From Sulfuricurvum sp. (GTDB taxonomy: Bacteria > Campylobacterota > Campylobacteria > Campylobacterales > Sulfurimonadaceae), in the NCBI RefSeq assembly GCF_030691015.1, contig NZ_JAUYFF010000019.1, positions 1 through 64,000 of the forward strand: a stretch of DNA of 64,000 nucleotides, written 5' to 3'. How positions within the stretch are numbered: the first letter of the stretch is position 1; each line of letters starts with the position of its first letter. Below are positions 14,985 through 32,672 of the stretch, one piece after another. A program made the translations under genes and the position numbers. The notes under the pieces are model-generated. The model was not told the origin of the DNA, searched no databases, and worked only from the letters and a program-made list of their open reading frames with translations.

Positions 14985-14997
14985 AAAAGGTGCTTTA

Positions 14998-15059
14998 GTT
15001 TGTCTTTTTGGATTGTATTAGAGGGGATTAAATTGATGTGGCGGACGAGGAGAGATTCG
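14998..15059 (+). repeat. Left attachment repeat (displaced tRNA-Ser 3' end)
   Basis: A 43-base identity (14998-15040) with 32608-32650, then a 19-base identity (15041-15059) with 32654-32672. The two blocks are separated in the right copy by one extra GTG unit. The 19-base block is the complement of the tRNA-Ser 3' end. Beyond 15059 the sequences diverge. This is the signature of tyrosine-integrase insertion at a tRNA 3' end. The GTG difference looks like slippage in a GTG repeat. Confidence 0.9.
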
Positions 15060-15105
15060 TGAAACACCTATTTTAAGCACTTTAAAGATATTTTATAAGA
15101 ATAAC

Positions 15106-15126
15106 CTACATTAAAAACTACATTAA
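15106..15126 (+). repeat. Left terminal direct repeat, putative integrase arm site
   Basis: This 21-base sequence contains two copies of CTACATTA-like units spaced by AAAA. The identical 21 bases occur at 32510-32530 near the other end, in the same orientation. Matching short repeats just inside both ends of an integrase-borne element are what arm-type integrase binding sites look like; the function is inferred. Confidence 0.55.
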
Positions 15127-15207
15127 CAACAATGTGACTCAACATTTGTATGAGATAAAGTCCTCTGCTATTTTTCTGATTTAGAATTGTATTTATTTTG
15201 TTTAAAA

Positions 15208-15276
15208 CTACCATATTTATTTTATATGGTAGAAATATTGTAAAAAACTACCATATTTTAATTATATGGTAGTTTT
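15208..15276 (-). terminator. Tandem hairpins after the Fic gene
   Basis: Two adjacent inverted repeats share the arm CTACCATAT. The first is 15208-15216 with 15224-15232. The second is a perfect 13-base arm, 15244-15256 with 15264-15276. On the minus strand the second follows the Fic stop within two bases and ends in a T run, as expected of an intrinsic terminator. The same nine bases also occur at the very end of the Fic coding sequence, so a repeated binding site is an alternative. Confidence 0.6.
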
Positions 15277-15277
15277 C

Positions 15278-16351
15278 CTACCATATCCCTTCACCCAATA
15301 GTGCATAGAGTTTAGGATTGATATAAAGGATAATTCGCGATCTTTTTTGCGACGTCAGTATTCCAATTTTTTCGAGTTCTTTGAGGTACTTAGATGCTGC
15401 GTGCCGCTCAACATCCAAAGCAACTTCGACATGAGCCGTTTTAGTATAGACTTCGGTAAAAATAGCATCGATAAGTTCACGTTTATAGATTTTTGGCAAT
15501 TTAGCTTTGACTTCATTTGCCGTTTCATCTACAAGCTCTTTAATTGCCTTAGCTTTCGTCAACGTACGAACGGCTGTCTCTTCAATGCCTTTGAGCATAT
15601 ATAAAGTCCACTCTTCCCATGCATTACTGACTCGCACTTCTTGTAATAATCGATAGTAGTCGCTTTTGTGTCGGATGATATAGCCACTCAAATAGAGTAT
15701 CGGTGCATCCAATAATCCCTCAAGACAAAGATAGAGGATATTGAGAATACGTCCTGTCCGACCGTTTCCATCGTAAAACGGATGAATCGATTCAAACTGG
15801 TAATGTAATATCGCCATTTTAATCAAAGGGTCTAATTCATCGGGCTCGTTGATTTGTTTTTCTAGGTTGGCAAGCAGTTCATAAATCATCGCCTCATCTT
15901 GAGGAGGAGTGTAAACAACTTCACCCGTTTTAGCGTTGCGTAGTACAGTGCCGGCTTGTTTTCGGATACCGGCATTATTACCGGAGAGTTCTTGTTGAAT
16001 GGCAACAATATCGTTTGTTGTTAAAAGTTGGCGGTGTTGCAAGTGAGTAAAACCAAAACGCAATGCTTTGCGGTAATTTAAAACCTCTTTGATGTTATCA
16101 GGAATATGGTGTGATTCACTCGCTAAGGCTTCAAATAGTTCATCTTGGGTGGTAATAATATTTTCAATTTCTGAGCTGTCTTTTGCTTCTTGGAGGGTAA
16201 GAGAATTGATGAGTATCTCTTTATTCGGGATTTGATCGGCAAACCCTTTTAGCTCTGCTAATGCCTTGTGTGCTTTAGAGAGTTGTTTGAGTATTGCAAC
16301 TGTGTCAAAATCAAATTTTGGCGGTAAAGGAGGTAAAACAAATTCATCCAT
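15278..16351 (-). CDS. Fic-domain protein (class II) with C-terminal winged helix
   Basis: Fic enzymes usually transfer AMP to a hydroxyl side chain of a target protein. The signature HPFYDGNGRTGR is complete at residues 190-201, including the catalytic His. Residues 59-64 (SSEIEN) match the inhibitory-helix motif (S/T)xxxE(G/N), placed N-terminally as in class II proteins that inhibit themselves. The C-terminal 80 residues resemble a winged helix (AASKYLKELEKIGILTSQKR), common in stand-alone Fic proteins. A GAGAGGAAGAG ribosome site precedes the ATG at 16351. No separate antitoxin gene is visible. It is cargo of the integrated element; target unknown. Confidence 0.9.
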   Translation of the reverse strand: MDEFVLPPLPPKFDFDTVAILKQLSKAHKALAELKGFADQIPNKEILINSLTLQEAKDSSEIENIITTQDELFEALASESHHIPDNIKEVLNYRKALRFGFTHLQHRQLLTTNDIVAIQQELSGNNAGIRKQAGTVLRNAKTGEVVYTPPQDEAMIYELLANLEKQINEPDELDPLIKMAILHYQFESIHPFYDGNGRTGRILNILYLCLEGLLDAPILYLSGYIIRHKSDYYRLLQEVRVSNAWEEWTLYMLKGIEETAVRTLTKAKAIKELVDETANEVKAKLPKIYKRELIDAIFTEVYTKTAHVEVALDVERHAASKYLKELEKIGILTSQKRSRIILYINPKLYALLGEGIW

Positions 16352-16421
16352 TAAAATGCTCTTCCTCTCAAATCATTAATATCAAAAAGAATATTTTAGC
16401 CGAAATGATCCAATATCTACT

Positions 16422-16477
16422 ATTCATTTGGCATTTTTCCCTTATATGGTCTTAGCGGGTAGGGGAATGAGGAAACA
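16422..16477. repeat. Imperfect 57-bp direct repeat, copy 1 (upstream of fic)
   Basis: Closely matches 17146-17202 in the same orientation, with roughly seven differences or indels. It contains a GC-rich run (TAGCGGGTAGGGG) that stands out from its AT-rich surroundings. It lies about 70 bases before the Fic start. The two copies bracket the unknown gene 16507-17091. Confidence 0.75.
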
Positions 16478-16506
16478 CTACTTCCTTGAAAATTGAGCCA
16501 ATATTT

Positions 16507-17091
16507 TTACAGATAGCTTTGAATCGTTGCTTTCCCAATCAACCGATACACTGCATCGAGAAAATTTTCAAGTGCATTCTTTTCTACTATAGCCTCAAAT
16601 TCATAGGAAGCATCAAGTGCAAGATGAGGGAATTTTTCTAACAACAGTTCATGCAAGCGTTCTGAAAAAGTATTTCTTCTCGCCATCGTGATAGTGATCG
16701 TAAATGTGTCATTTGTATTTCTAACAAGATTGAAATCATAAATCAAACTTGGATCATGATATGCGGATAAAAATATTGCTCTTCCATTTATCTCGGTTTC
16801 TTGTTCGAGATATTCTCCGAGAGTTTTGGCGAATTCGAGAAAGGCATAAAGGAAACAGTAGTCATTGCTTCTTTGCAACATTATGCCGCGTTCGTACATG
16901 AGATTATCATATATCGAAGTCGCCGCTTGTTGGTAGTTTATATTATTGACAAATACATCACCTGTAAAATAATCTTTTTCTAAATTTAATAAACACACTT
17001 CTGAATAGGGAGTTCCTTTTTTAAAACATCCAATTTCAAAAATAACATTACCTTCAATATCAACCAAGACAGCTTTTTTAGTTGAATCCAT
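16507..17091 (-). CDS. Hypothetical protein flanked by direct repeats
   Basis: A 194-residue soluble protein I do not recognise. It has no signal peptide, membrane helix or clear catalytic motif. The start has a beta-rich pattern (KKAVLVDIEGNVIFEIGCF) and the middle a helical stretch (CFLYAFLEFAKTLGEYLEQE). The ATG at 17091 has AGGAAAG upstream, and TATAAT lies at 17120-17125 on the same strand. It sits between the resolvase and Fic genes, all minus strand, and is bracketed by a 57-bp repeat pair, suggesting it moved or was duplicated as a cassette. Whether it works with Fic is unknown. Confidence 0.7.
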   Translation of the reverse strand: MDSTKKAVLVDIEGNVIFEIGCFKKGTPYSEVCLLNLEKDYFTGDVFVNNINYQQAATSIYDNLMYERGIMLQRSNDYCFLYAFLEFAKTLGEYLEQETEINGRAIFLSAYHDPSLIYDFNLVRNTNDTFTITITMARRNTFSERLHELLLEKFPHLALDASYEFEAIVEKNALENFLDAVYRLIGKATIQSYL

Positions 17092-17145
17092 TAACTTTCC
17101 TAAAAAATATTATTTCACTATTATACCCTTGATATTGACATAGAT

Positions 17146-17202
17146 ATTCATTTGGCATTTTTCCCCTATAGGGTCTTAGCGGGGTAGGGGCATGGGGAAA
17201 TA
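17146..17202. repeat. Imperfect 57-bp direct repeat, copy 2 (upstream of the 16507 gene)
   Basis: Partner of the repeat at 16422-16477. This copy holds the palindrome CCCTATAGGG and G-rich runs that could pair with the C-rich bases just after it (17203-17213), giving a structured element on the minus strand. It begins about 55 bases upstream of the 16507-17091 gene start and lies after the resolvase stop. Confidence 0.75.
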
Positions 17203-17239
17203 CCCACCCCCCCGATATAGCAAAAACATTTTTGGAAAT

Positions 17240-17854
17240 TTAAACTATCTTCTTGCTTTGTATATAGTTTGTGAGGCTTTGTCTCGTTCCGACTCCGATG
17301 ATCTTGGTGATACTTGCTATCGAAACATCTTTAGCAACTAATTCTTGGATCATAGATAAATGCTCATCGTACTTGGATTTAACAACTGCCCCTTTTTGTC
17401 TGCCGAGTTTGACACCGCTTGCTTTACGTTGCGCCAGTGCCGATTTGGTGCGTTCACTGATAAAACTCCGCTCCATTTGGGCAAATCCGGTGAGAAGTGT
17501 GATTATCATTTGATTGATCGGGCTAGTATCATTTCCGTCCACAACAATCCCATCTTTGATGATGTGAAGCTGAATACCCCTATTTTTAATATCCTCGATG
17601 ATTTGTAGCACTTCAATCGTCGAACGTCCGAGGCGGTCTAGTTTGGTAACTATGAGAATATCACCGCTTTTTAACTGTTCTAGCGTTTCATCAATGAGTC
17701 GCTCTTTTTTATTTTTCGTAGAGGAAACTTCAATTTCAACTATTTTATCAATAGTCATCTTTTTCGTATGAGCGTAATCGAGAATCTCTTTACGTTGATT
17801 TTCAGTTGTCTGCACCCCTGTTGAGACTCGGCAATATCCATAAATTCTGCTCAT
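17240..17854 (-). CDS. Serine recombinase of the resolvase/invertase family
   Basis: Small serine recombinases invert, delete or resolve DNA between short sites. The N-terminal catalytic domain has the nucleophile Ser11 in IYGYCRVST and the arginine-rich signatures IVTKLDRLGRS and GFAQMERSFISERTKSALAQ. The C-terminus carries a helix-turn-helix (VSIASITKIIGVGTRQSLTNYI). The 204-residue length is normal. I chose ATG 17854 with AAGG eight bases upstream; a TTG 15 bases earlier lacks a ribosome site. A consensus promoter lies directly upstream. It probably acts on the element itself, perhaps resolving dimers or rearranging neighbouring cassettes. Confidence 0.93.
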   Translation of the reverse strand: MSRIYGYCRVSTGVQTTENQRKEILDYAHTKKMTIDKIVEIEVSSTKNKKERLIDETLEQLKSGDILIVTKLDRLGRSTIEVLQIIEDIKNRGIQLHIIKDGIVVDGNDTSPINQMIITLLTGFAQMERSFISERTKSALAQRKASGVKLGRQKGAVVKSKYDEHLSMIQELVAKDVSIASITKIIGVGTRQSLTNYIQSKKIV

Positions 17855-17883
17855 TTTGCGACCTTGCAAGTTTAGATGTAATA

Positions 17884-17912
17884 ATCATATCTATACTTGC
17901 TTATTTTGTCAA
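17884..17912 (-). promoter_or_regulatory. Sigma-70 promoter of the resolvase gene with ACTTG/CAAGT motifs
   Basis: On the minus strand: TTGACA (17907-17912), a 17-base spacer and TATGAT (17884-17889), a near-consensus promoter with a leader of about 23 bases to ATG 17854. ACTTG/CAAGT half-sites overlap the -35 region and recur in the leader (CTTGCAAG), so the recombinase or another protein may bind here. Confidence 0.75.
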
Positions 17913-18077
17913 GTTTAAATAGCTATATTTACTTAACAATAAAGCATTAGTAAACGTTCATCTATTATTGACAGATAAAGACATAAATATTTTCACGATC
18001 TTAAAATATCAAATTAAAAAAGGTTAACTTTTATTTAAGAACGCTAAAATATATAAAACTTTAGCCTGAAGTCCTTT

Positions 18078-20822
18078 ATGAACGAAAAAATAACGCGAAA
18101 ACAATTAATTGATCAGCGTCTAATGCAAGCTGGTTGGCATCTTGAAGACAGAACTCTTGTTGTAGAAGAGTTATATCTTGCAACAACCAATGAATATGTT
18201 GATTATGTTCTTTATGCTAAAGATGGGAAACCATTCGCTGTTATCGAAGCTAAAAAAACTTCCAAAGATGCTGAACTCGGCCGCGAGCAGGCTAAACAGT
18301 ATTGTCAAAATATTCAACAATCATTTAATTGTGAATTGCCATTTTGCTTTTATACAAATGGCAACGATATTTACTTTTGGGACATAGGTAAACATCCTCC
18401 ACGCAAAATACACAGTTTTCCAGAGCGTCAAGACCTTGAGCGTCTTCGCCATATCCACATATACAAAAAACCCTTAGCCCATGAATTTATTAATACTTCA
18501 ATAGCCGGACGTGATTATCAAGTAAGCGCCATACGTTCGATTATGGAAGCAATTGATAAAAAACGTCGTAACTTCTTGCTTGTAATGGCAACCGGTACCG
18601 GTAAAACAAGAACGACGATCGCATTGGTCGATGCGTTGATGCGTGCTGGTTACGTCAAACGCACACTTTTTTTAGTAGACCGTATAGCTCTTAGAGAACA
18701 GGCACTCGATGATTTCAAAGAGTATCTCCCAAATGAACCTATTTGGCCGAAGTTTGGTGAAAAAGCGATTGCCAAAGATCGCCGTATTTACGTCTCCACT
18801 TATCCAAGTATGCTCAATGTCATTCGTGATGAAGAACAGACGCTTTCATCACACTTTTTTGACCTTATTATCGTTGATGAATCTCACCGTTCTATTTATA
18901 ATACCTATGGTGAGATATTTGATTATTTCGATGCAATGCGTCTTGGACTAACCGCAACTCCAACCAATGTAATCGATCACAATACCTTCCAATTATTTGA
19001 TTGCTCTGATGGATTACCAACCTTTGCTTTTTCATACGAAGAAGCACTTTTGCATGAACCCCCGTATTTGTGTAACTTCCAAGTTATGAAAATTAAAACC
19101 AAATTTCAAGATGAAGGTATTAGTAAACGTACCATCAGTTTAGAAGATCAAAAACGCTTGATCCTTGAAGGGAAAGAGATCGAAGAAATCAACTTTGAGG
19201 GTAGTGATCTCGAAAAACGAGTGATTAACAAAGGGACTAATCAGCTTATCGTTAAAACATTTATGGATGAGTCTATAAAAGATAATGATGGCGTTCTCCC
19301 CGCTAAAACTATCTTTTTTTGTATGACTAAAGCGCATGCCAGACGTATAGAAGAACTTTTTGATGAACTCTATCCCGAATATGCCGGTGAACTTGCAAAA
19401 GTTATGGTGTCTGATGACAGCCGCGTTTATGGCAAAGGCGGTTTGCTCGATCAATTTAAAAACAAAAATCTTCCACGTGTTGCTATCAGTGTAGGGATGC
19501 TCGATACGGGTGTGGATGTACGAGAGCTCACCAATCTAGTATTTGCAAAACCTGTCTATTCCTATACCCGTTTTTGGCAGATGATAGGTCGAGGCACACG
19601 ACTATTAGAGCCTACCAAACCTAAAGCATGGTGCACCAAGAAAGATCATTTTCTTATTATGGATTGTTGGGATAATTTTGAATATTTCAAACTCACACCT
19701 ACGGGGAAAGATCCAACTTCTTCAGTACCTCTTCCCGTCAAGCTCTGTGAAATACGTATCAATAAAATAAGTGTTGCACTGGATACAGCGCCAGAGATTT
19801 CCGAAAAAGAGATCACAAAGCTCAAAAATGAAATTGCCCATTTACCCGAAGGATCGATCGTCATCCGTGATGCGAGAAATGATCTTGATCAATTAGATGA
19901 AATCTTTTGGAACAACTTGGATGAGGCAAAAATAGCTTATCTTCATGACAAGATTCAACCCCTTTTCAAAACCATGGTCGGTGTTGATTTTAAAGCTATG
20001 CGTTTTGAAAAAGACGTACTTGATGCTTCTTTGTCAAAACTGGCAAATGATGAAACCAACTACAAAAAACAAACCGACTCTCTAATAGCTCAAATCTCAG
20101 AATTACCTCTTTCGATTAATATCGTAGCCCATCATGAAGATGTCATTAATGAAGTTTTAAAACCTTATTTTTGGGAACATGCGATTGATGAACAGTTTGA
20201 TGGCGTCAGCGAAGAGCTTGCCCCTTTAATGAAGTACAGAGAGGTAATAGATGACGGTCAACAAACTAGACTTAACATCAAAGATATCATCAAAGAAATA
20301 GAATATGTAGAATTTGGTGCATCCACTGAATCAGTTAGTATCTCTCAATATAAAGCGATGGTAGAGCAAAAGATCAGTGAGCTACTTGCACAAAATCCAA
20401 TTCTCCAAAAGCTCAAAGAAAAAGGTACGATCAGTGAAAATGAGACCCGTGAGCTTGCGATAGTATTAGAGCATGAGTCTCCACATATTACTATTGATCT
20501 GCTTCGCCGCGTCTATCAAAATAAAAAAGCACCGTTTTTAAAACTCATTCGTCATATCTTAGGTATCGAAATGCTAGAGAGCTTTCCCGATACGGTGAGT
20601 GCTTCCATCGACAAATTTATACTGCAACACACGACTCTCAGTAAGAAGCAGTTAGAATTCCTCAATCTGTTAAGGGATTTCCTTATAAAACAGGGTGATA
20701 TACAGAAAAAAGATTTTATTTCCGCACCTTTTACCGTGCTGCACCCAGACGGAATACGAGGGATATTTTCACCGCAAGAAATCAATGAAATATTAGATAT
20801 GACAAAGGAACTCGTCGCATAA
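18078..20822 (+). CDS. hsdR: Type I restriction enzyme, R subunit HsdR
   Basis: HsdR is the translocating and cleaving subunit. The N-terminal nuclease domain has the D...E-x-K core (YVDYVLYAKDGKPFAVIEAKK). A superfamily 2 helicase follows: Walker A in MATGTGKTRTT near residue 173, DESH box in IIVDESHRS, then LTATPT and the motif VI region QMIGRGTRL. The C-terminal 300 residues match the EcoEI-type HsdR tail. Length 914 is normal. It leads a seven-gene operon with one-base or four-base overlaps between most neighbours; hsdM starts on its last base. Confidence 0.95.
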   Translation: MNEKITRKQLIDQRLMQAGWHLEDRTLVVEELYLATTNEYVDYVLYAKDGKPFAVIEAKKTSKDAELGREQAKQYCQNIQQSFNCELPFCFYTNGNDIYFWDIGKHPPRKIHSFPERQDLERLRHIHIYKKPLAHEFINTSIAGRDYQVSAIRSIMEAIDKKRRNFLLVMATGTGKTRTTIALVDALMRAGYVKRTLFLVDRIALREQALDDFKEYLPNEPIWPKFGEKAIAKDRRIYVSTYPSMLNVIRDEEQTLSSHFFDLIIVDESHRSIYNTYGEIFDYFDAMRLGLTATPTNVIDHNTFQLFDCSDGLPTFAFSYEEALLHEPPYLCNFQVMKIKTKFQDEGISKRTISLEDQKRLILEGKEIEEINFEGSDLEKRVINKGTNQLIVKTFMDESIKDNDGVLPAKTIFFCMTKAHARRIEELFDELYPEYAGELAKVMVSDDSRVYGKGGLLDQFKNKNLPRVAISVGMLDTGVDVRELTNLVFAKPVYSYTRFWQMIGRGTRLLEPTKPKAWCTKKDHFLIMDCWDNFEYFKLTPTGKDPTSSVPLPVKLCEIRINKISVALDTAPEISEKEITKLKNEIAHLPEGSIVIRDARNDLDQLDEIFWNNLDEAKIAYLHDKIQPLFKTMVGVDFKAMRFEKDVLDASLSKLANDETNYKKQTDSLIAQISELPLSINIVAHHEDVINEVLKPYFWEHAIDEQFDGVSEELAPLMKYREVIDDGQQTRLNIKDIIKEIEYVEFGASTESVSISQYKAMVEQKISELLAQNPILQKLKEKGTISENETRELAIVLEHESPHITIDLLRRVYQNKKAPFLKLIRHILGIEMLESFPDTVSASIDKFILQHTTLSKKQLEFLNLLRDFLIKQGDIQKKDFISAPFTVLHPDGIRGIFSPQEINEILDMTKELVA

Positions 20823-22471
20823 TGTTACAAAACAATCCTCAGCTAAAAAGCCTTATAGACAAACTATGGAACAAATTCTGGGCTGGTGGCATTTCTAATC
20901 CGCTGACGGCTATCGAACAGATTACTTATTTGATTTTTATGAAGCGTCTAGACGAACTGGATACTAAGCGAAAAGCTAATGCTGAGTGGACAGAAGAACA
21001 ACATATTTCTATTTTTGATGGTGTCTTTCCAGAACCTACTGAACAAGAGATTGAAGATTTTGCAAATGGTAAAGCAGACACTGTAGTTCGAGTTAAAAAA
21101 CAAACATTACGTTGGAATTATGTCAAAGAGCTTAAATCTGAAGAAATGTTAACACATATACAACAATATGTTTTCCCTTTTATTAAACAACTTGGTGGCG
21201 AGAGTTCCCATTTTGTTAAACATATGAAAAATGCGGTCTTCATCATACCCTCTGCATCATTATTAGTAGAAGCAATTAGCATTATCGAAGATCTATTCAA
21301 AGAAATTGATAAAGATGCCAAAGAACAGGGGCATGCTTTTCAAGATATCCAGGGTGATGTTTACGAAATGCTTCTCAGTGAGATTGCAACAGCTGGGAAA
21401 AATGGACAGTTTAGAACACCAAGGCATATAATCAAACTCATTGCAGAACTGGTAGAGCCAAAACTTGGTGACAAAGTGGGAGATCCAGCATGTGGTACTG
21501 GTGGCTTTTTGCTTGGAGCATATCAGTACATTGTTTCATCATTGGATACTGAGGGTAAATTCGCCCAAAAAGACGAAGATGGTTTTACACGTAGCAGCAC
21601 TAGCGCATTACTTACCGCTGATGTCAAATCAAGTTTAGATGGTTCATTCCATGGCTATGATATAGATGTTACGATGGTACGTCTTGGGCTCATGAACCTC
21701 ATGATGCACGGCATTGATGATCCGCAAATTGATTATATGGATACCCTCAGTAAAAAATTCAACCATAGTGAATTAAATTCTTATGATGTAATCTTAGCAA
21801 ACCCTCCTTTTACAGGAAACTTGAATAAAGGTGAAATAGATAGTGAATCTTTAACGTTAAATACCACTAAAACCGAATTATTATTTATCGACCGTATTTA
21901 TACTTTGTTACGACAAGGTGGAACAGCAGGCGTTATTGTTCCACAAGGCGTACTTTTTGGTACTGGAAAAGCTTTTCAAGAAGCACGAAGAATAATGATT
22001 GAAGAATCTCAGTTAAAAGCAGTAATTAGTATGCCAAGTGGTGTTTTTAAACCTTATGCTGGAGTTGCAACAGCAATCCTGATTTTTACTAAAGCAGGTG
22101 TTACTGACAATGTCTGGTTTTATGAGATGGTGAATGACGGTTATTCATTGGATGATAAACGTACAAAGATTGATAAAAGTGACTTACAAGATATAGCAGA
22201 TAAATATAAAACACGTAATGTAATGATTGAAAATGACCGAAAAGCTAAGCACTTTTTTGTAACTAAAAATGAAATTAGCGAAAATAACTATAACCTTAGC
22301 CTTAACAACTATAAAGAAGAAGAGTATACAGAAATCCAGTATGAAGCTCCTTTGGTAATTTTAAATAAATTGCTGAAAAATGAGATTGGAGATATATCTG
22401 AAAATGAGCTAAAAAAAGTTAAAAGTGGTATCGTACGAGAATTATTGGAGCTAAAGGAGATGATTGGGTGA
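20822..22471 (+). CDS. hsdM: Type I restriction-modification methyltransferase HsdM
   Basis: HsdM methylates adenine at the site chosen by HsdS. A helical HsdM N-terminal domain (residues 1-140) is followed by an N6-adenine methyltransferase domain with SAM motif GDPACGTGGFLLGAY near 221 and catalytic motif ILANPPFTG near 325. Length 549 is typical. Its ATG shares one base with the hsdR stop. Its 3' part becomes more AT-rich, matching the following genes rather than hsdR. Confidence 0.96.
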   Translation: MLQNNPQLKSLIDKLWNKFWAGGISNPLTAIEQITYLIFMKRLDELDTKRKANAEWTEEQHISIFDGVFPEPTEQEIEDFANGKADTVVRVKKQTLRWNYVKELKSEEMLTHIQQYVFPFIKQLGGESSHFVKHMKNAVFIIPSASLLVEAISIIEDLFKEIDKDAKEQGHAFQDIQGDVYEMLLSEIATAGKNGQFRTPRHIIKLIAELVEPKLGDKVGDPACGTGGFLLGAYQYIVSSLDTEGKFAQKDEDGFTRSSTSALLTADVKSSLDGSFHGYDIDVTMVRLGLMNLMMHGIDDPQIDYMDTLSKKFNHSELNSYDVILANPPFTGNLNKGEIDSESLTLNTTKTELLFIDRIYTLLRQGGTAGVIVPQGVLFGTGKAFQEARRIMIEESQLKAVISMPSGVFKPYAGVATAILIFTKAGVTDNVWFYEMVNDGYSLDDKRTKIDKSDLQDIADKYKTRNVMIENDRKAKHFFVTKNEISENNYNLSLNNYKEEEYTEIQYEAPLVILNKLLKNEIGDISENELKKVKSGIVRELLELKEMIG

Positions 22472-23943
22472 AAAATACTGTCATTAAATCTATCTCAAAA
22501 TTTGCGGAAGTTATTACTGGTGGGACACCTTCAACCGGAAAGTCTGAATATTGGGATGGTGATATTCCTTGGTTAAATTCTGGCGTATTAAATGATGGAG
22601 ATATTAAAAAACCATCAAAATACATTACAAAACTTGGTTTAAAGAATTCATCTGCTAGGTTAATGCCAAAAGATACTGTTTTGATCGCATTAACTGGAAC
22701 TACAACAGGTCAAGTAGGCTATTTATCATTTGAAGCAGCTGCAAATCAATCAGTCACGGGGATTCTTCCATCAAGCCAACATCATCCTCGTTATCTCTAT
22801 TACTATCTAAAATCGAAGCGATCTAAGATACAAGGCGATACTTTTGGTGGTGCACAGCCACACATTAATCAAAAATATATTAAGGATTTTAAAGTTCCCC
22901 TGCCATCTCTTGAGTATCAAATCCAAATTGCTACAATTTTAAGTCAAGTTGATGAACTGATTACAAAACGCGAAGATAGTATTAAACTTCTCAATGAATT
23001 GCTTATGAGCACTTTTTTAGATATGTTTGGAGATCCTGCTTTAAATCCTAAGAGTTGGAATATCAAAACGTGTATAGATGTCGCATCATGTATAGTACCA
23101 GGGAGAGATAAGCCAAAATCATTTACGGGAAGTGTTCCTTGGGTAACCACAAATGATTTAGTCAATAAAGGAATTATGAAAATATCTGAAGATCACCTAG
23201 GTTTATCTATTGAAGAAATTGATGAAGTAAAAGCTAAATTAATTCCAAAAGGAAGTGTTATATTCACATGTGTTGGGGACTTAGGGATTGTAACTATTAA
23301 TGATGAAGCTATAGTTATTAATCAGCAATTACATGCCTTTCAGCCTTCTGATGATGTAAATAATATCTTTATGATGTTTAATCTTAGTTTTCAAAAAAAT
23401 TTTATGTACAAGTATGCATCAAAAACAACTGTCCCATATATGAATAAAACTACTTGCAATAGAATCCCTATTATTTTACCTCCAAAATATCTCCAAGATA
23501 AATTTGCTACCATTGTAGAAAAAGTAGAGTTAACAAAAATAATCTATCGGGAAAGTCTAGATCAACTTAATAAGCTCTTTAACTCATTGGCACAGAGAGC
23601 TTTTAATGGGCAATTAGATTTCAAAAAGTTTAAAATAGATAATAGTCAATATCAAAATAATGTTGAAAGTATTGCAAAGATTGACAATATATCTCCGTTA
23701 GAATATGTAGATGAAAGTAATGCTCCTATATTTGATGAACAATTTTTAGAAATGCTTTTGTTTCAAGCAGATGATGATATCACATTTGAATCCATCAATC
23801 ATAAACTAGTAAAATTTTCTTTTCGAGAACAGCCAAGTTATGATGAAATACAAAAACATATTTTTTCTTTGATAAAAAAATCAAAATTAGTACAAATATT
23901 TGATCAAGAAAGAAATAAAATCGTATTAAGTAAAAAAATATGA
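22468..23943 (+). CDS. hsdS: Type I specificity subunit HsdS with extra C-terminal domain
   Basis: Two target-recognition domains (about 1-150 and 195-340) alternate with two conserved helical regions (QIQIATILSQVDELITKRED and LQDKFATIVEKVELTKIIYR), the usual HsdS layout. It starts with GTG after AAGGAG and overlaps hsdM by four bases. Unusually, residues about 391-491 continue beyond the second conserved region with a helical, perhaps winged-helix, extension (EQPSYDEIQKHIFSLIKKSK). This tail might connect the methylase/restriction complex to the ATPase encoded next, which overlaps by four bases; that is inference. Base composition is markedly AT-rich. Confidence 0.92.
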   Translation: MKNTVIKSISKFAEVITGGTPSTGKSEYWDGDIPWLNSGVLNDGDIKKPSKYITKLGLKNSSARLMPKDTVLIALTGTTTGQVGYLSFEAAANQSVTGILPSSQHHPRYLYYYLKSKRSKIQGDTFGGAQPHINQKYIKDFKVPLPSLEYQIQIATILSQVDELITKREDSIKLLNELLMSTFLDMFGDPALNPKSWNIKTCIDVASCIVPGRDKPKSFTGSVPWVTTNDLVNKGIMKISEDHLGLSIEEIDEVKAKLIPKGSVIFTCVGDLGIVTINDEAIVINQQLHAFQPSDDVNNIFMMFNLSFQKNFMYKYASKTTVPYMNKTTCNRIPIILPPKYLQDKFATIVEKVELTKIIYRESLDQLNKLFNSLAQRAFNGQLDFKKFKIDNSQYQNNVESIAKIDNISPLEYVDESNAPIFDEQFLEMLLFQADDDITFESINHKLVKFSFREQPSYDEIQKHIFSLIKKSKLVQIFDQERNKIVLSKKI

Positions 23944-25547
23944 AATTATTAAGCATAAAATTATTAGGAGATACAAGTTTTAGAAGTTTGGCTCAAGGTT
24001 TTGAAATAAAATTTTCAAGTAAATTAAGTGAACACATACAACCTAAATGTATTATAGGATTAAATGGTAGTGGCAAATCTAACCTCCTAGAATTGTTGTC
24101 TGAAATCTTTTTTTATATAGAAGAATATCTTATGCAAGTAGAAAAAAATACTTTGCTTGAAAAAAAAGATTTTGACTTTGAATTAGAATATCTATTGCCA
24201 CTTTCTAAAGTATCTTTTTTATTACAACTTGGTTTTGAAAAAATTGATAAATACATTCAAGTTAAGATAAGAAAAGAAAATAGTGGATACCCTGTATTTT
24301 CAATTAAACGTTATGAATCCAATAAGCCATACATAGTACAAACAGAGCGTTTAGCTAGTTTTTTACCTTCAAAAATTATAGGTTATAGTTCAGGGATGAA
24401 TGAATTAATAAGTAATCCTTATTTGAAAATGAACTTTCAATACTTCAAAGATTATGAAGAAAGTTTAAAAAATAATTTTACATATCATTTCGATACTAGT
24501 AGATTGTTTTTTATGAGCTACGAAAGTAATAATTTAATTGTTGTAGCAAATTTTTTATTGGCCGAATCAAAAAAGTTAAAAATATTCCATCAAGAATTAA
24601 AAATCGACTCACTAAACTCTTTTAGAATCAAAATTCGATTTCAAGATTATGATAATAAAGTTATTCTCGTACCTGATGATATTGGAAAAGATATAGAAAA
24701 GTTAAAATCATGTGCAACAATATATCATGACCAAGGAATAGGTAATAAAAGAGAAATAGTAATGGATTTTTATGTCGATGCTATGCTGAAAATAGCATTT
24801 GAAAATCACTTTATTTCTGCATTTGAATTATTTAAAAGTTTTTATCGCTTGGACTTACTCAATATACATTTAGTACCCAAAAGCATTAGAAATCAAATTT
24901 TGAAATCATCTGGCTCATTAAATATTTCTCAGATTATTCCTTCAGCTCCATCAAAAAAATTATTTGACTTTGAATATATTAAATTAAATAAAGAAAATAC
25001 TTTTGAACCAGTTCTATATGAGAATTTATCGGATGGGGAACACCAGTTTTTACAAATTTTTGGTTCATTGAGTATGCTTAATGATGAAGGGAATCTTTTT
25101 TTATTAGATGAGCCGGAAACGCACTTTAATCCAAATTGGCGTTCAAAAATGATTAGTATTATAAATAATTTGTTAAATGAACAAGAAAGCACTGTTAAAA
25201 ATCAAGAAATTATTTTAACAACGCATTCACCTTTTATTCTGTCGGATAGTAAAAAAGAAAATATTTTTAAATTTAAAAAAGAAAATGGTAATGTTAAATA
25301 TGAAAGTTTTGAGAATAGTGAAATCAAAACGTACGGAACGTCAATTAGTGATTTACTTGAAATGTTCTTTGAAAAATCAGAATCAATTGGAGCGATGTCG
25401 TATGAAGAATTACAAGAAATAATTTCAAATATTAAGACAATAGAAAATTATAATGAAGCAAAAAAGAAACTTAGTAAATTTGGTGATTCTATAGAGAAAT
25501 TTGATGCATATAATTTTTTAAATCAAAAGAAAATGGAACTAGAATAA
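23940..25547 (+). CDS. Restriction-associated AAA/ABC-type ATPase (PtuA-like)
   Basis: A 535-residue ATPase of the RecF/OLD-like ABC group without a long coiled coil: Walker A GLNGSGKSN near residue 43, signature-like NLSDGEHQF near 362, Walker B LFLLDEPETHFNP near 382 and switch His in LTTHSPF. No Toprim nuclease domain follows. ATPases of this kind occur beside type I systems, and the pairing with the HNH gene downstream is that of Septu (PtuA/PtuB). ATGA overlap with hsdS and a one-base step to the HNH gene imply a co-expressed module. A sensing or gating role for the nuclease is inferred from Septu. Confidence 0.85.
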   Translation: MKLLSIKLLGDTSFRSLAQGFEIKFSSKLSEHIQPKCIIGLNGSGKSNLLELLSEIFFYIEEYLMQVEKNTLLEKKDFDFELEYLLPLSKVSFLLQLGFEKIDKYIQVKIRKENSGYPVFSIKRYESNKPYIVQTERLASFLPSKIIGYSSGMNELISNPYLKMNFQYFKDYEESLKNNFTYHFDTSRLFFMSYESNNLIVVANFLLAESKKLKIFHQELKIDSLNSFRIKIRFQDYDNKVILVPDDIGKDIEKLKSCATIYHDQGIGNKREIVMDFYVDAMLKIAFENHFISAFELFKSFYRLDLLNIHLVPKSIRNQILKSSGSLNISQIIPSAPSKKLFDFEYIKLNKENTFEPVLYENLSDGEHQFLQIFGSLSMLNDEGNLFLLDEPETHFNPNWRSKMISIINNLLNEQESTVKNQEIILTTHSPFILSDSKKENIFKFKKENGNVKYESFENSEIKTYGTSISDLLEMFFEKSESIGAMSYEELQEIISNIKTIENYNEAKKKLSKFGDSIEKFDAYNFLNQKKMELE

Positions 25548-26654
25548 TTGCTATTTTTTTATAAACCTTTACACAACCATAAAATTGAAAAGCTACATCA
25601 TTATAATAGATATTTTTTTATTGGTTTATTTACATTTGAACCAAAATTTGTTCATTCTAGATTACTAATACACCCTGATTTTGAAGAAATTTATACATCC
25701 TATAAAACAACAATAAAAGACCATTTGGAAAATATTCACAAAGTCTATATTGCATTATCTTCACATGATAAAGAACTTGTTAAAAATGCATTTTACAACA
25801 ATCAATTAATTGAAGATATTTGTAAATGTTCAATTAATCCAGTGAGCTATTCTGAATTACCTAAAGAGATCAATAATTTATTAGAAGAATATTTAACTAA
25901 CTTATGGTCATTACTTACAACAAAGGATGCTAAAAAAAATATTAAACTAAAAGAACAATGTGGAAATATATATGAGCACTATTGTGACTTATTTAAAGAT
26001 AAACGACAAATATTTACTGTTTGCCCGGTCTGTGGCATTGAAGAATTATTAGAAGAATATGACTCTTGTAACGATGAAAATGAAGAAAATCAAACAAAAG
26101 CCAGAGAAGCATATGACCATTATTTGCCAAAATCACTATATCCCTTTATGTCTATAAGTTTTGAAAATCTCATACCAATCTGTCATCACTGTAATAGTGA
26201 TTATAAACATAAATATAACACACCATACGATGGAAGCCATAGACAGAAATGTTTTTTCCCTTATTCATCTGGTAATAATAGTATTCAAGTCAATATCCAA
26301 TCTGAACATATACTCAAAGCTTTGAGTTCCTCAAACAGTTGGTTTATAGAGTTAAATTCACCTAATGATATCCAAGAAGAAATAGATTCTTGGGATCGAA
26401 TTTTTCAAATTAAATCAAGATATAAAAACCGGATAAAAACAAAAGAAGCATCCTGGAAGCAACGTCTTTATACTGAATATAAACATGATAGTTCATCGAA
26501 TACTTTTACATTAGATTCTTTTAAAATTAAAATGTATCGAGATATTCAATTAACTGATCAATCAAGTGCAATTGTTCAAAAATCTTACTATGATTATTTT
26601 TTAAATAATTTATTGCCATCATATATGGCAATGGAAGAAGAAATGAACCAATGA
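25548..26654 (+). CDS. HNH endonuclease (PtuB-like)
   Basis: The 368-residue protein holds a complete HNH nuclease centre near 160-230: a zinc-type VCPVCG, the motif DHYLPKSLYP, and NLIPICHHCNSDYKHKYN. The DHYLPK form followed by NLxPxCxxCN is what PtuB of Septu systems shows. The N-terminal 150 residues are helical with no recognised domain. It starts with TTG right after the ATPase stop, with only weak GGA upstream, so it probably depends on coupled translation, which would keep nuclease low relative to ATPase. AT-rich like the ATPase gene. Confidence 0.85.
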   Translation: MLFFYKPLHNHKIEKLHHYNRYFFIGLFTFEPKFVHSRLLIHPDFEEIYTSYKTTIKDHLENIHKVYIALSSHDKELVKNAFYNNQLIEDICKCSINPVSYSELPKEINNLLEEYLTNLWSLLTTKDAKKNIKLKEQCGNIYEHYCDLFKDKRQIFTVCPVCGIEELLEEYDSCNDENEENQTKAREAYDHYLPKSLYPFMSISFENLIPICHHCNSDYKHKYNTPYDGSHRQKCFFPYSSGNNSIQVNIQSEHILKALSSSNSWFIELNSPNDIQEEIDSWDRIFQIKSRYKNRIKTKEASWKQRLYTEYKHDSSSNTFTLDSFKIKMYRDIQLTDQSSAIVQKSYYDYFLNNLLPSYMAMEEEMNQ

Positions 26655-27340
26655 CAAAAGCACAAAAATACCTCGAAGCCCTCAAAACCTTTGATGACTG
26701 GATCATTGTCTCCGAATGGGCAATACGTGTTAGTGAACTTTATCCTGATCTCCTAGAAGAAGCCAATAAACAAGCTGAGCAACAGAAAAACGATACAACA
26801 GGACTTCGTGAACTGGCAGCACGCATCAGTTCACGTCTCTCTACTGGTGGTTTTGGTACTGATGTAGAAATCGATGAGTCTGAACGCCCTAGAAAGGTAC
26901 GATATGTCTCGGAAGAATTTAAAAAAGAACGAATCGATCAGGAACTTGCTGAAGATATTGAACCGTTAACCAGAGCTGAGCGGATCAAACAAGATTGCAA
27001 AGCGTTAAGTGTCACTGAAGAGTATCGTATAGCGGAGTTTGAAGCCATCAGCAGACAGCTCAACCGGTTTTTTGGATTAGATTTTGAAGTCGATCATGCA
27101 ATGGCTATTCTCAATCCCGAAAATCCGGGTAAACATCACCCCGATAATCTTCAAATACTCATAAAAGCCCATAATGGCAAGAAACATAAATACAACTGGC
27201 AACGCTTTAGTATCGATGATCAAATTGCTTATATAGAAGCTGTAATTAGCTTGCAAACGATCGTTGCGCCGAAATTCGGCATTGAGCTTGAACCCAAGGT
27301 GCTAGAAAACTTGATCACTCGATTGCGTGAGGTCTTTTAG
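26651..27340 (+). CDS. Second HNH-like protein of the restriction operon
   Basis: The 229-residue product has a variant HNH pattern near 150-185: FEVDHAMAIL, then GKHHPDNLQILIKAHNGKKH, which gives the DH, N and H/K positions of a beta-beta-alpha-metal nuclease without zinc cysteines. The N-terminus is helical and charged. It overlaps the PtuB-like gene by four bases. Its base composition is visibly richer in GC than the three preceding genes and close to that of hsdR. That suggests it belonged to an older hsdRM-linked operon into which the hsdS-ATPase-HNH segment was placed. Confidence 0.7.
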   Translation: MTKAQKYLEALKTFDDWIIVSEWAIRVSELYPDLLEEANKQAEQQKNDTTGLRELAARISSRLSTGGFGTDVEIDESERPRKVRYVSEEFKKERIDQELAEDIEPLTRAERIKQDCKALSVTEEYRIAEFEAISRQLNRFFGLDFEVDHAMAILNPENPGKHHPDNLQILIKAHNGKKHKYNWQRFSIDDQIAYIEAVISLQTIVAPKFGIELEPKVLENLITRLREVF

Positions 27341-27876
27341 TGTTTAATGACTGCAATGCGCTGCTTCCATTTTCCGCAGTATTGTTCAGTGCAGGTATAG
27401 CGTATTATATTTACTCACGTAATCGTCGTTACGATAAGGCGAAAGAAAAACTCAAAAACCTCTATAATCCCCTTAATGCACTAATCCAAAAGCGATCAAA
27501 ATATCTAGCCTTCCTCAACATTCGTGATCGTTCACGCTATGAAATCGAATACTACAATTTCTTTTTAGAACTTCGAGATATTTATCTCGAAAATTCAATG
27601 TATGGTACAGTTAAACTCAGAATGGCTTTTCATACCCTATGGCACGCACATGAGATAGAATATAACCTTGTTGATAAAGGCAATTCCTCAGAAGAAGAAA
27701 TGATTAAACAAATTGCTAATTTTGAGCTAAACCATCGTATTGGTAAAGATGAGAATAGTGAATTTGAACGCAAAATGGAAGAGTTAATCCGAATCATCTC
27801 AATAGAGCAATATTATTTGAGCAAAGAGATCATGTTTAAATTTAAAGAAGCAATTTACGACGGTACCAAGGATTGA
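27340..27876 (+). CDS. Small membrane-anchored protein at the end of the restriction operon
   Basis: Starts with GTG sharing one base with the previous stop (TAGTG). The first 25 residues form one membrane helix (LLPFSAVLFSAGIAYYIYS) followed by a basic stretch and a helical cytoplasmic domain of about 150 residues with no catalytic motif. I do not recognise the family. Single-helix membrane proteins occur as effectors in some defence operons, so an effector or regulator role is possible but unproven. It is the last gene of the operon; an antisense remnant overlaps its final 22 bases. Confidence 0.65.
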   Translation: MFNDCNALLPFSAVLFSAGIAYYIYSRNRRYDKAKEKLKNLYNPLNALIQKRSKYLAFLNIRDRSRYEIEYYNFFLELRDIYLENSMYGTVKLRMAFHTLWHAHEIEYNLVDKGNSSEEEMIKQIANFELNHRIGKDENSEFERKMEELIRIISIEQYYLSKEIMFKFKEAIYDGTKD

Positions 27877-28061
27877 TTTGATTTATCAAAGCGAGTCTCC
27901 TTGAGCTGTAGAACGGTTTGCTTTTTGAGAAATGCTTTAGCCGAATCCGAAAGCATCTGATAATCGCTGATGATGTAGTGAAAAGCGACTTGTTTTTTGA
28001 CAGGGTTTTGGATCAAATAGAGATAGCAATCACCGATAAATGCACGAAGATGATCCCTGCA
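27855..28061 (-). pseudogene. Possible C-terminal remnant of a lost gene
   Basis: On the minus strand a frame of 68 codons without a start is bounded by stops at 28062-28064 and 27855-27857. Its translation reads like protein (DHLRAFIGDCYLYLIQNPVK, then ISDYQMLSDSAKAFLKKQ). There is no ribosome site or start at its left boundary. It probably represents the tail of a gene whose front was deleted. No family recognised. The region from 28065 to about 28137 shows nothing further. Confidence 0.35.
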
Positions 28062-28137
28062 TTAACTTTTTCCGGTTGATTCTCAAATTGATTGTATATA
28101 TTTTCACAAAATATTTTAAATAACCTATGAAATATTA

Positions 28138-28365
28138 TCAAGTTGTCTTTATATTCTTCAACATTTCAACAAACTCCTTGAAGCTTCGGGTGTTAGGTGT
28201 TTTTGGCTGTTGAAGATACCAATCAACATAATTTAAACAATCAACATCCTCTTTTTCCACTTTCCGGAAATTCCGGTTTTGTTCTAATTTCCGTACCCAC
28301 CTAGCAAAATCCTCCGGTTTGGGAGGAAAAGGCGGGGGATGCCAATAATAAACTGTATATAAACT
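28138..28365 (-). other. In-frame open extension after the replicase stop codon
   Basis: Directly after the TAG stop of the replicase gene, the same frame stays open for 75 codons to a TGA at 28138-28140. The translation has a coding look (PPKPEDFARWVRKLEQNRNF, then DVDCLNYVDWYLQQPKTPNT). No ATG lies near its beginning. It may be a former C-terminal part of the replicase cut off by an amber mutation, a readthrough product, or a small gene that lost its start. Confidence 0.45.
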
Positions 28366-29367
28366 CTATTTCTGCCATCGTAATTTAATGAAATCGCCAT
28401 AGGTAGAATTGAGTGAAGTTACCGAAATGCTGAGGTTTCTAGCGAGTTCAGCTTTGATCGGATTTCTATTCTCTTCCTTGCACTTTAAGAAATATTTAAT
28501 GATTTGTTTTTTTCTATCTTTGACCAATTTTGCTCTATTGATCTGTGCTTTTTTGCTTCCGCTTCTCAGTGTGGCGTTTTGAGATAGCTTGTATATGCTG
28601 TTTGTGATCGAGCGTATTTCATTGATCGGTAGGGGTTCATAACACTTTTCATCGTTTAACCGCTTCGCAAAGCTAAAAATATGTTGTTTGGTAGCTTTAG
28701 AATAGGCGAATTCCCGACAACAGAGTTTAAAGATAGTGCAGTTGCGATTAGAGCTGATCTTTTGATGTTTACTGACCGATAGATAACTCTTGGAGCTGTA
28801 GGAGAAAATTTCACTTGCGAACGCTTCGAGTGGTAATGCGCCTTTTAAATCCTTTAGGTCATAAATGACACTGGTATATGCGATGTGTTTGTGCCGTAGT
28901 GGATTTCTAAAAATACCATGATTTTTACTACTGGCAATTTTGTCTAAATCTAAATACCGTATGTACCTAGATTTGATGTCGGAGAGAAAATATTGGGGGG
29001 AGTTTTTCGGATTGTGTCCGGCTTGAACGTTTAAAAATCCTTTGATGAAAAACCCAAACTGAAACCCTTTCGTAGTTGCACATATATAGCTAGGGCGTAT
29101 CTCGATCATTTCCAAAAGCCATTCCTCAAAAATAACCAAATCCCCGAAATACTCAAGTGCCGTTTGACCCTCATGGGTATCTTTATCAAATACCACAATA
29201 GTTGTCCGTTCTTTTGAATTAAACTCGATAAATAGAGACGATTTTAATGCATTATGCGTCATTTCAAGAGGCTTAGAATAAGCCCCCGATTTGTTGTCAC
29301 TGCAATGGATTTTTGGCGGGAGATTTTTGAGTAATAGTGCAAATAAATCGCCTTCATTTGTTTTCAT
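28366..29367 (-). CDS. RepA/replicase-type replication protein with PriCT-like tail
   Basis: Resembles the plasmid replicase family typified by ColE2 Rep: a primase-polymerase-like N-terminal half with GIFRNPLRHKHIAYT, then the family hallmark SSNRNCTIFKLCCREFAY, a PriCT-type helical module (INEIRSITNSIYK) and a basic C-terminal helix-turn-helix-like end (IKAELARNLSISVTSLNSTY). Such proteins prime replication at their own origin. It is the last gene of the minus-strand replication operon, nine bases after the DUF3987-like gene. The stop TAG at 28366 interrupts a frame that stays open for 75 more codons, so it may be shortened. Confidence 0.75.
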   Translation of the reverse strand: MKTNEGDLFALLLKNLPPKIHCSDNKSGAYSKPLEMTHNALKSSLFIEFNSKERTTIVVFDKDTHEGQTALEYFGDLVIFEEWLLEMIEIRPSYICATTKGFQFGFFIKGFLNVQAGHNPKNSPQYFLSDIKSRYIRYLDLDKIASSKNHGIFRNPLRHKHIAYTSVIYDLKDLKGALPLEAFASEIFSYSSKSYLSVSKHQKISSNRNCTIFKLCCREFAYSKATKQHIFSFAKRLNDEKCYEPLPINEIRSITNSIYKLSQNATLRSGSKKAQINRAKLVKDRKKQIIKYFLKCKEENRNPIKAELARNLSISVTSLNSTYGDFIKLRWQK

Positions 29368-29376
29368 TCATCGCCC

Positions 29377-30615
29377 CTACTGCTCATTTACGCAATAGCG
29401 TAGAACGGTTGTGGCGGGCTGAATTTCGAGAAAGCCTTTTGTCAGGGACAATAAATCTTTTTTCGAAATACGCATCCGTTGTTGAATTTCTCGAATTTTT
29501 GGCATAGTTCCATGCTCATTTAGGAATGTTTCGACCAAGTATTTAATCTTCTCAATCTTTTTTTCTTCCCAGATGACCGAGCTATTATCGGTGAGATAGT
29601 CGATTAGTTTGTCAATTTGCGGATAGATAATCTGCTTCATAAAAGCTACTGCCAATTCTGTGGTCGAGGGAGTGACGTTCTCGTCCCATTGTCCTTTTTC
29701 AAAGCATCTAAGTGCATGAAAAATACGGATAATGATGATAGTGTTCTGAGCGATACGGTTATAAAAAAAACCAAAGTTCTCGTTACCTTCTCGTAGAAAA
29801 TTGATTTTTATTGATTGTATCTCTTGTTTAAACTGTGTGAGCAGTTCTTTGGAAGTTATACAGTAAGAGACCTCTAGTGAGTTTTCTCGTAAAAATTTCA
29901 ATAGCTCTACGATTTGTTCATTTATTGCTGATGTATCTATCTCATTCAAACCGATAGGATTAATCTCTTCAGGCAATTTAAGCCGATTGTTAAAAACTAT
30001 CAAAGAACGGTTGACAAAACCTCCGAGAAGATGGTGTTTCAACTTCTCTTTTGACCCGAAGTAATCGAGTGTCGTTGCTCCTATAAAACTTAGAGCGACA
30101 GAAACGACCGAATCGGTAGAGGGTAATTCGGTTTTTAAAACGGGTAGGGTTGTTTCCTCTAAACCGTATAGCTCCGTTACGGTATGAATGATCTCATCAT
30201 TCGTTTTTAGGCTTAAGCCCAATTCATCATTGATAATCAATTGAGCGGGAACCGTTTTAAAACACTCATACAGTGCCGGAATCGTCACTCTATTGCGATG
30301 AATATTCATATATCGCTTTGTTCTCTCTTCGCCGTCATTTGTAGAAGCTTGGAGAGCTTTTTGCTCATTGATGATTGGACGAAGCAATGCTTGGTATTGA
30401 AGATCAATGTTATGTGATTTACCCGAACCGGAAATACTAAAATCAAGTAACAACAAAGATGTTTTTCTCATTCCTGCGTGAGAGAGGATAAATCCAAACA
30501 TACTGATGGCTACTAATGAAACCTGCGCATAATCGGCTTCGCAATATTCCATAACAGTATCGATATGTTTATCCAACAGAGTGATATTGGTAGTAAAAGG
30601 AGTCGATGCGTTCAT
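29377..30615 (-). CDS. DUF3987-like ATPase of the replication module
   Basis: A 412-residue P-loop protein: Walker A FSISGSGKSHN near residue 60 and Walker-B-like LIINDELGLS near 130, followed by a region with SFIGATTLDYFGSKEK. This pattern fits DUF3987-type proteins that accompany primases or replicases in integrative elements and satellites, probably as helicase-like factors. It overlaps the AlpA-like gene by four bases (ATGA) and precedes the replicase, so the three form one minus-strand operon. Helicase activity is inferred, not visible. Confidence 0.7.
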   Translation of the reverse strand: MNASTPFTTNITLLDKHIDTVMEYCEADYAQVSLVAISMFGFILSHAGMRKTSLLLLDFSISGSGKSHNIDLQYQALLRPIINEQKALQASTNDGEERTKRYMNIHRNRVTIPALYECFKTVPAQLIINDELGLSLKTNDEIIHTVTELYGLEETTLPVLKTELPSTDSVVSVALSFIGATTLDYFGSKEKLKHHLLGGFVNRSLIVFNNRLKLPEEINPIGLNEIDTSAINEQIVELLKFLRENSLEVSYCITSKELLTQFKQEIQSIKINFLREGNENFGFFYNRIAQNTIIIIRIFHALRCFEKGQWDENVTPSTTELAVAFMKQIIYPQIDKLIDYLTDNSSVIWEEKKIEKIKYLVETFLNEHGTMPKIREIQQRMRISKKDLLSLTKGFLEIQPATTVLRYCVNEQ

Positions 30616-30791
30616 GCAGACTCTTTTGCTTGCTCGATAAAACGGGTTAACTCGTCGATATCGAAAACGGTAACTCTTTGGGAGAGTTTTATGGTATGCA
30701 GTTTTTGTTGTTTTGCATATAACCAGACGGTACTCACGCCGATTCCTAAAAATTCGGCAGCCTCAGGGGCTCTATAGTATTTTTTACTCAT
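30612..30791 (-). CDS. AlpA/excisionase-like DNA-binding protein
   Basis: A 59-residue protein of the MerR-like winged-helix excisionase type: YYRAPEAAEFLGIGVSTVWL forms the helix-turn-helix and QRVTVFDIDELTRFIEQ the wing and tail. The ATG (30789-30791) has AAAGGA upstream and the stop overlaps the next start. AlpA-like proteins act as excision factors or as activators of integrase genes in satellites and genomic islands. Here it heads the replication operon, so it may coordinate excision with replication. Confidence 0.8.
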   Translation of the reverse strand: MSKKYYRAPEAAEFLGIGVSTVWLYAKQQKLHTIKLSQRVTVFDIDELTRFIEQAKESA

Positions 30792-30933
30792 TGTTTGTCC
30801 TTTTATTAGTGGACTCGAAGCTTCAAGATTTGAATACCGCTCTGTTGGATTTATTTGAGCTGTATTGGGCGTGCTTGGATGAAAGTTTACATAATAAAAA
30901 TGAGCTAAGTGGGCTGTAAAAAAGGTACAGTTA
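30792..30933. other. Upstream region of the AlpA operon with a short open frame
   Basis: This intergenic stretch should hold the promoter of the minus-strand replication operon, but I see no clear -35/-10 pair. On the plus strand a frame from a GTG at 30809 runs to a stop at 30919 with coding-like text (LNTALLDLFELYWACLDESL) but no ribosome site. I do not call it a gene. Confidence 0.3.
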
Positions 30934-31089
30934 ATGAAATTTAAAATAACACAATGGAAGATTTTTTTGATGAGAGTGAAATTAAAGTCCGAGGCAGGAA
31001 TTACAACGAATAAGCCGACAACCCCTTACTCTATTCCTACAATTGTCGAATGTGCTTTAAGCTCTTATAATTTACGGAGAGATTTTTAA
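30934..31089 (+). CDS. Possible small basic protein
   Basis: A 51-codon frame starting at ATG 30934 with AAAAAAGG about eight bases upstream and ending at TAA 31087-31089. It begins MKFKITQWKIFLMRVKLKSE and has no known motif. It lies in the 400-base space between the integrase and AlpA genes, opposite in strand to both. The ribosome site supports it, but length and lack of homology knowledge leave it uncertain. The remaining 100 bases to the integrase stop show nothing else. Confidence 0.3.
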   Translation: MKFKITQWKIFLMRVKLKSEAGITTNKPTTPYSIPTIVECALSSYNLRRDF

Positions 31090-31189
31090 GACGAACCGAT
31101 TGTATCCGTTGCATGAACGGAACTTTTTTATCATCTAGCATTGAAAGTATACTAAAAATTAACTCATATCAAAATTTGAATAATTTGCA

Positions 31190-32452: not shown

Positions 32453-32467
32453 AATCTACCCCTTCTA

Positions 32468-32496
32468 ATGTAGGTTTTAAAACCTACATAATGTAG
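32468..32496. promoter_or_regulatory. Nested palindromes upstream of the integrase gene
   Basis: A perfect 22-base palindrome (32468-32489, ATGTAGGTTTT arms) overlaps a 13-base palindrome (32484-32496, CTACAT-A-ATGTAG). They sit 16-44 bases before the integrase start, where a -10 region would lie. TTGATA on the minus strand just upstream could be its -35. The position suggests an operator for integrase control, perhaps bound by the AlpA-like protein or by integrase itself, since the half-site resembles the terminal repeats. Confidence 0.55.
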
Positions 32497-32509
32497 TATT
32501 ATCAACAAA

Positions 32510-32530
32510 CTACATTAAAAACTACATTAA
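32510..32530 (+). repeat. Right terminal direct repeat, putative integrase arm site
   Basis: Identical 21 bases to 15106-15126, same orientation. Together with the CTACAT half-sites at 32484-32496 it gives a cluster of related motifs near the right end. Confidence 0.55.
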
Positions 32531-32607
32531 GAGAGTGGATGGTGTTGAATAAGACAAATGGGTGTTAGAGGCTAAATAGTGTTAAAAGTGCCTATTTAAG
32601 GGTTTTT

Positions 32608-32672
32608 GTTTGTCTTTTTGGATTGTATTAGAGGGGATTAAATTGATGTGGTGGCGGACGAGGAGAGATTCG
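32608..32672 (+). repeat. Right attachment repeat overlapping tRNA-Ser 3' end
   Basis: Counterpart of 14998-15059. Bases 32652-32672 are part of the intact tRNA-Ser gene, so the element supplies the 3' end of the functional tRNA. The copy holds one more GTG unit than the left repeat. Confidence 0.9.

Follow-up and report, generated by a model that had tools for sequence, protein, structure and literature searches.

The window, a 64,000-nucleotide stretch of Sulfuricurvum sp. DNA, contains at 14994-32672 a genomic island of about 17.6 kb at a tRNA-Ser(GCT) gene, with a likely role in antiviral defence; this feature was absent from the original prediction. The target tRNA-Ser(GCT), found with ARAGORN at 32652-32741 on the minus strand, is adjoined by a tyrosine (phage-type) integrase gene (31190-32452, minus strand). 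One att copy (32604-32672) includes the 3' end of the tRNA-Ser, and its counterpart at the opposite island end (14994-15059) is 94% identical to it over 69 columns on the same strand. The G+C content of the island is 0.350, against 0.414 and 0.419 in the flanks. Its cargo comprises a type I restriction-modification system (18078-23943, plus strand; hsdR 18078-20822, hsdM 20822-22471 and hsdS 22468-23943), a Septu-like pair (23940-26654, plus strand) made of a PtuA-like AAA ATPase and a partner that matches PDC-M62B and, more weakly, PtuB models, a SoFic-like fic gene, a serine recombinase gene and an orphan gene starting at 16507.

Two further observations concern the island ends. A AACTACATTAAAAACTACATTAA-type sequence, possibly the arm sites of the integrase, occurs near both of them (15100-15126 and 32504-32530), and a similar sequence was seen by eye after fic in the genome G016 and in G007. 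The stretch that follows the tRNA-Ser (window 32574-32655) is 86% identical to L035 8257-8341 of G016, located after a tRNA-Phe recognized by eye, so it is probably a terminal part of some element using different tRNAs. In the literature we found nothing joining Sulfuricurvum with a genomic island and an integrase, or with Fic and restriction.

The repeats of interest lie among three cargo genes, all on the minus strand: fic (15278-16351; Fic_N, Fic and SoFic-like C-terminal domains), the orphan gene (16507-17091) and a small serine recombinase of the resolvase/DNA-invertase family (17240-17869). The first copy, R1 (16421-16478, minus strand), is situated upstream of fic, 28 bases past the stop codon of the orphan gene and with its end 69 bases from the fic start codon. 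The second, R2 (17145-17203, minus strand), is upstream of the orphan gene, 36 bases past the resolvase stop codon and 53 bases from the orphan start codon. Each copy follows a stop codon by 28-36 bases and precedes a start codon by 53-69 bases. R1 and R2 have the same orientation, with a start-to-start spacing of 724 bases, and align over 59 columns at 89.8% identity, with five substitutions and one 1-base indel.

This repeat pair is real and beyond chance. At E 1e-4 the 64-kb window holds just two pairs of same-strand repeats, R1/R2 (2.7e-14) and the att pair of the island (5.5e-23). A 36-base pattern allowing up to three mismatches matched both copies and had no match across 100 shuffles; at the same tolerance, a search of the 2.33-Mb genome found R1 and R2 and no further copy. 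The original prediction of 57-bp direct repeats around an unknown gene, each ahead of a minus-strand gene, is therefore confirmed, and its fic (PF13784 and PF02661) and resolvase (PF00239) labels hold. Its description of a repeat-gene-repeat-gene array is right as to a gene bracketed by repeats; there is one such gene and no longer array. Just inside the repeats, AT-rich inverted arms with 75% identity are present at 16489-16508 and 17103-17122, which we did not take as transposon ends.

The bracketed gene encodes a protein of 194 residues. Codon statistics trained on seven genes of the window give 0.142 for the annotated frame versus -0.036 to -0.161 in the other five, and so it is probably a real gene. 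A search with its protein at E 0.01 gave matches in 4 of 397 genomes, namely the protein itself and three alignments with E values of about 0.005, which were counted as chance because each has a stop inside. A peptide pattern matched 79 stretches in genome contigs, with none confirmed. The protein had no match in plasmids, phages, Pfam, PADLOC or PHROGs and no convincing one in the PDB (best E 0.13), and its single-sequence structure model reached a mean pLDDT of 55.7.

We searched for the repeat outside this locus with several queries. With a 26-base pattern and up to three mismatches, 1 of 60 genomes matched, the one analysed here, and none of the 59 relatives did. When an 80-base DNA query was run on a sample of 397 genomes of the phylum, the two copies described above were the only convincing matches; the next best covered 25 bases (E 7.5e-4), and with 347 of the 397 genomes matching at E≤10, such matches are noise. 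R2 together with the resolvase gene, used as DNA at E 1e-10, was found in its own genome and in none of 149 others. An exact 24-base pattern had no match in viral contigs or in genome contigs, the latter possibly leaving out the genome itself or very near records, and blastn of the repeat against plasmids and phages gave none. The proposed survey of Campylobacterota for copies with different genes between them consequently has no material to compare, since the repeat was found here alone, the outcome that the original prediction had itself set against its reading.

Of the two suggestions made there, one was that the repeats could be recombination sites of mobile cassettes. Plasmid-borne relatives of the neighbouring serine recombinase reach at most 42% identity to it, and some of them are annotated as Mpi-type invertases; its PHROGs match is a DNA-invertase family, and its best PDB matches are Tn3-type resolvases. 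In viral contigs 41 stretches fit the pattern for its relatives and none was confirmed. Two contigs of about 6 kb, L087 (G036:C31) and L088 (G026:C68), have identical 127-base ends and are likely circular plasmids; they carry serine recombinases 42-44% identical to that of the window together with iteron-like repeats containing TACATGTAAGG.

In favour of R1 and R2 being sites worked by this recombinase or by another one, the orphan gene and its downstream repeat form a 724-bp unit, as in cassette arrays; the recombinase gene ends 36 bases from R2, and the R1 border coincides with a border of the fic module also seen in the genome G437. Against this, no further copy of the repeat turned up in the genomes, contigs, plasmids and phages searched, and four genomes encoding recombinases 42-44% identical to this one (G018, G026, G032 and G036) had zero matches to it each. 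Crossover sites of small serine recombinases are expected to be dyads of about 28 bp, and in a 13+2+13 layout R1 pairs at 6 of 13 positions, a level that 948 of 1000 shuffles attain, and R2 at 8 of 13 (136 of 1000), so a resolvase site is not supported, for lack of a dyad. Integron attC sites are expected to contain the core motifs GTTRRRY and RYYYAAC, and neither core is present on either strand of the 71-base stretches around R1 and R2; the four strands folded as RNA gave hairpin z scores of +1.12, -0.61, +0.24 and +0.62, no better than shuffles. An attC site is likewise unsupported, there being neither cores nor a special fold, and an RNA element was dismissed because of the same folding result; Rfam returned only two sub-threshold matches, both outside the repeats. 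Cassette sites are hence not supported, and we regard them as improbable.

The comparison with relatives is more informative on the fic side. Immediately upstream of fic, a block common to three relatives (16352-16420, minus strand) ends at the start of R1. A 911-base query from the fic start to the resolvase end matched 9 of 41 genus genomes at E 0.01, its own included. Matches to the fic upstream block were strong in 3 of the 40 others, G437 (query 1-72), G016 (1-67) and G007 (13-79), and the other five matched genomes gave short matches (E 0.0016-0.008); one of these five, with 23 bases in G002, also falls within the block, as does a second such match in G016. The homology ends at window positions 16421 in G437, 16416 in G016 and 16428 in G007, that is, at the start of R1. 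The module itself is well conserved as DNA, with 15107-16416 being 90.6% identical in G016 and 15213-16421 being 90.7% identical in G437, and the inverted repeats ATATGGTAG/CTACCATAT at the fic 3' end (15204-15276) are also present in G016; the fic of G007 breaks off after about 50 bases. Beyond the block, the DNA upstream of fic differs: G437 has a response-regulator tail, G016 the island arm found after its tRNA-Phe and also after the tRNA-Ser of the window, and G007 an AHSA1-domain gene, the last being surrounded by 27-base inverted repeats that are 89% complementary (L036 7407-7433 and 8066-8092). In these relatives the fic module stops where R1 begins on its fic side, so DNA has been joined at this place. 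Across the order, fic was detected at E 1e-20 in 18 of 298 genomes including its own, and in G157 alone does the match take in most of the gene; it reaches no further than the start codon and is therefore uninformative about the repeat.

G016 and G437 retain the block upstream of fic but not the repeat, and of the three relatives tested these two have no resemblance to the repeat there. With anchoring at the border, the sequence upstream of fic in G007 is similar to the initial 30 bases of R1: an equally good score came from 15 of 5000 random genomic positions, from 0 of 300 shuffles initially, and then from 6 of 2000 and 0 of 2000 with two kinds of shuffles. Without anchoring, the resemblance is not significant under two scorings (168 and 56 of 1000 shuffles for R1, 64 and 69 of 1000 for R2). 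As regards a relative with one copy and no insert, these 30 bases are all that was seen, and they are suggestive of the repeat being old fic-upstream DNA.

The main rival to our interpretation is that an upstream regulatory element was duplicated, the repeat being an operator or activator site through which fic and the orphan gene would come under common control. Both copies stand upstream of start codons, at 53 and 69 bases, and they end 19 and 22 bases upstream of the -10-like hexamers TATAAT and TAAAAT of the two genes, as identified by eye. However, G016 and G437 keep the promoter-proximal block of fic without the repeat, no dyad above shuffles exists in it, and a promoter scan listed neither hexamer promoter (11 sites, compared with a shuffle mean of 11.1). 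Moreover, if the G007 resemblance is real, the repeat has diverged faster there than the neighbouring block. The suggestion of duplicated regulatory regions thus draws support from the position of the hexamers and loses it with the two relatives, and we consider it rather unlikely, at about one chance in four.

A parallel to this arrangement was found in G437, whose assembly is fragmented (85% complete, 230 contigs). Its contigs C190 and C218 carry four copies (L092 518-619 and 8021-8090; L034 6085-6163 and 7410-7488) of the 3' tail of a response-regulator gene whose domains are Response_reg and Trans_reg_C, and at E 1e-6 this tail was in no other of the 41 genus genomes. Two of the copies are direct repeats on both sides of fic, 79 bases at 95% identity; one lies inside the response-regulator gene, and two of the four end contigs. 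The order would then be tail, fic, tail, 7.4 kb, tail, where two of the four copies are presumably a single repeat split by a contig break. In G437 the fic module is bordered by GTAGAT, the point at which R1 ends in the window (16415-16420). One could go further and propose that this 5' border GTAGAT is a joining point for various single genes or small modules, each of which leaves direct repeats tens of bases long (R1/R2 here, the response-regulator tail in G437), through an insertion process of this genus that operates with no resident integrase of its own, a generalization to which we attach a low probability.

Since the G437 repeats are the 3' tail of a gene, R1 and R2 might also be remnants of a duplicated gene tail, or of some other older segment, unrelated to the arrival of the orphan gene. 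Their minus strand could encode the peptide PLRPY(K/R)GKMPNE, which at E≤1 matched 16 of 120 genomes including its own; 15 of the 119 others matched, and 10 of these 15 belong to the same genus, an apparent enrichment. Outside the window the best of these matches has an E value of 0.02, and the matching frame was the longest open frame at 0 of 18 match places, for which reason the matches were taken as chance and a minus-strand gene tail was rejected. A plus-strand gene tail was also set aside, as its one match among 397 genomes (39 bases at 83%, E 0.0023, at a gene end read as feoB in G017) is about what chance would give over that number of genomes. This origin of the repeats appears to us a rather poor prospect.

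The interpretation we prefer, to which we give about an even chance, is that a gene gain left R1 and R2 as its scar, the orphan gene having been inserted into island cargo with a long direct duplication. A segment carrying this gene would have entered between the resolvase and fic, within the cargo of the tRNA-Ser island, and a stretch of about 59 bases would have been left on both sides as a long direct duplication produced by illegitimate or homologous recombination. Duplication and gain would be one event, and the duplicated stretch would derive from DNA formerly upstream of fic. If R1 and R2 recombined, the orphan gene could be lost as a 724-bp unit. The observed basis for this proposal consists of two same-orientation copies, one bracketed gene, the island and the fic-module border common to relatives, and we also count the finding of the same fic module between direct repeats of another sequence in G437. 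Because no empty site (resolvase, repeat and fic without the orphan gene) was found among relatives, the gain is not itself observed. The two copies are 10% apart, indicating that the event is not recent or that the copies already differed at the outset. In Helicobacter pylori, insertion with long target duplication reportedly needs no transposase. If our interpretation is right, this would be another accessory defence-island gene gained with a long direct duplication outside that species and with no visible transposase, and a single fic module with a common border in several genomes would be a place to test the insertion process.

Among known systems, tRNA islands with a phage-type tyrosine integrase share the features of the surroundings (a tRNA-Ser, an adjacent integrase, an att repeat with the tRNA 3' end, lower G+C and defence cargo), whereas R1 and R2 are internal to the island and unlike its att sites. 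A gene with a repeat of about 59 bases behind it recalls integron cassettes, which differ in their GTTRRRY/RYYYAAC cores, special fold and arrays. Small serine resolvases and DNA invertases with their sites are approached in that such a gene adjoins R2, but the repeat has no dyad and is absent from the four genus genomes that encode related enzymes. The last comparison is with restriction-modification genes of H. pylori, for which insertion with long target duplication was found through comparison of two strains (Nobusato et al., 2000, as outlined in passages of PMC3031569, PMC1643837 and PMC4978471). Relative to those passages, the present case differs in that no empty-site strain was found and that the gene is an orphan matching no restriction-modification family. 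As far as the same passages go, it is alike in that one pair of direct repeats directly flanks an accessory gene, and in its restriction-modification neighbourhood, here represented by hsdRMS.
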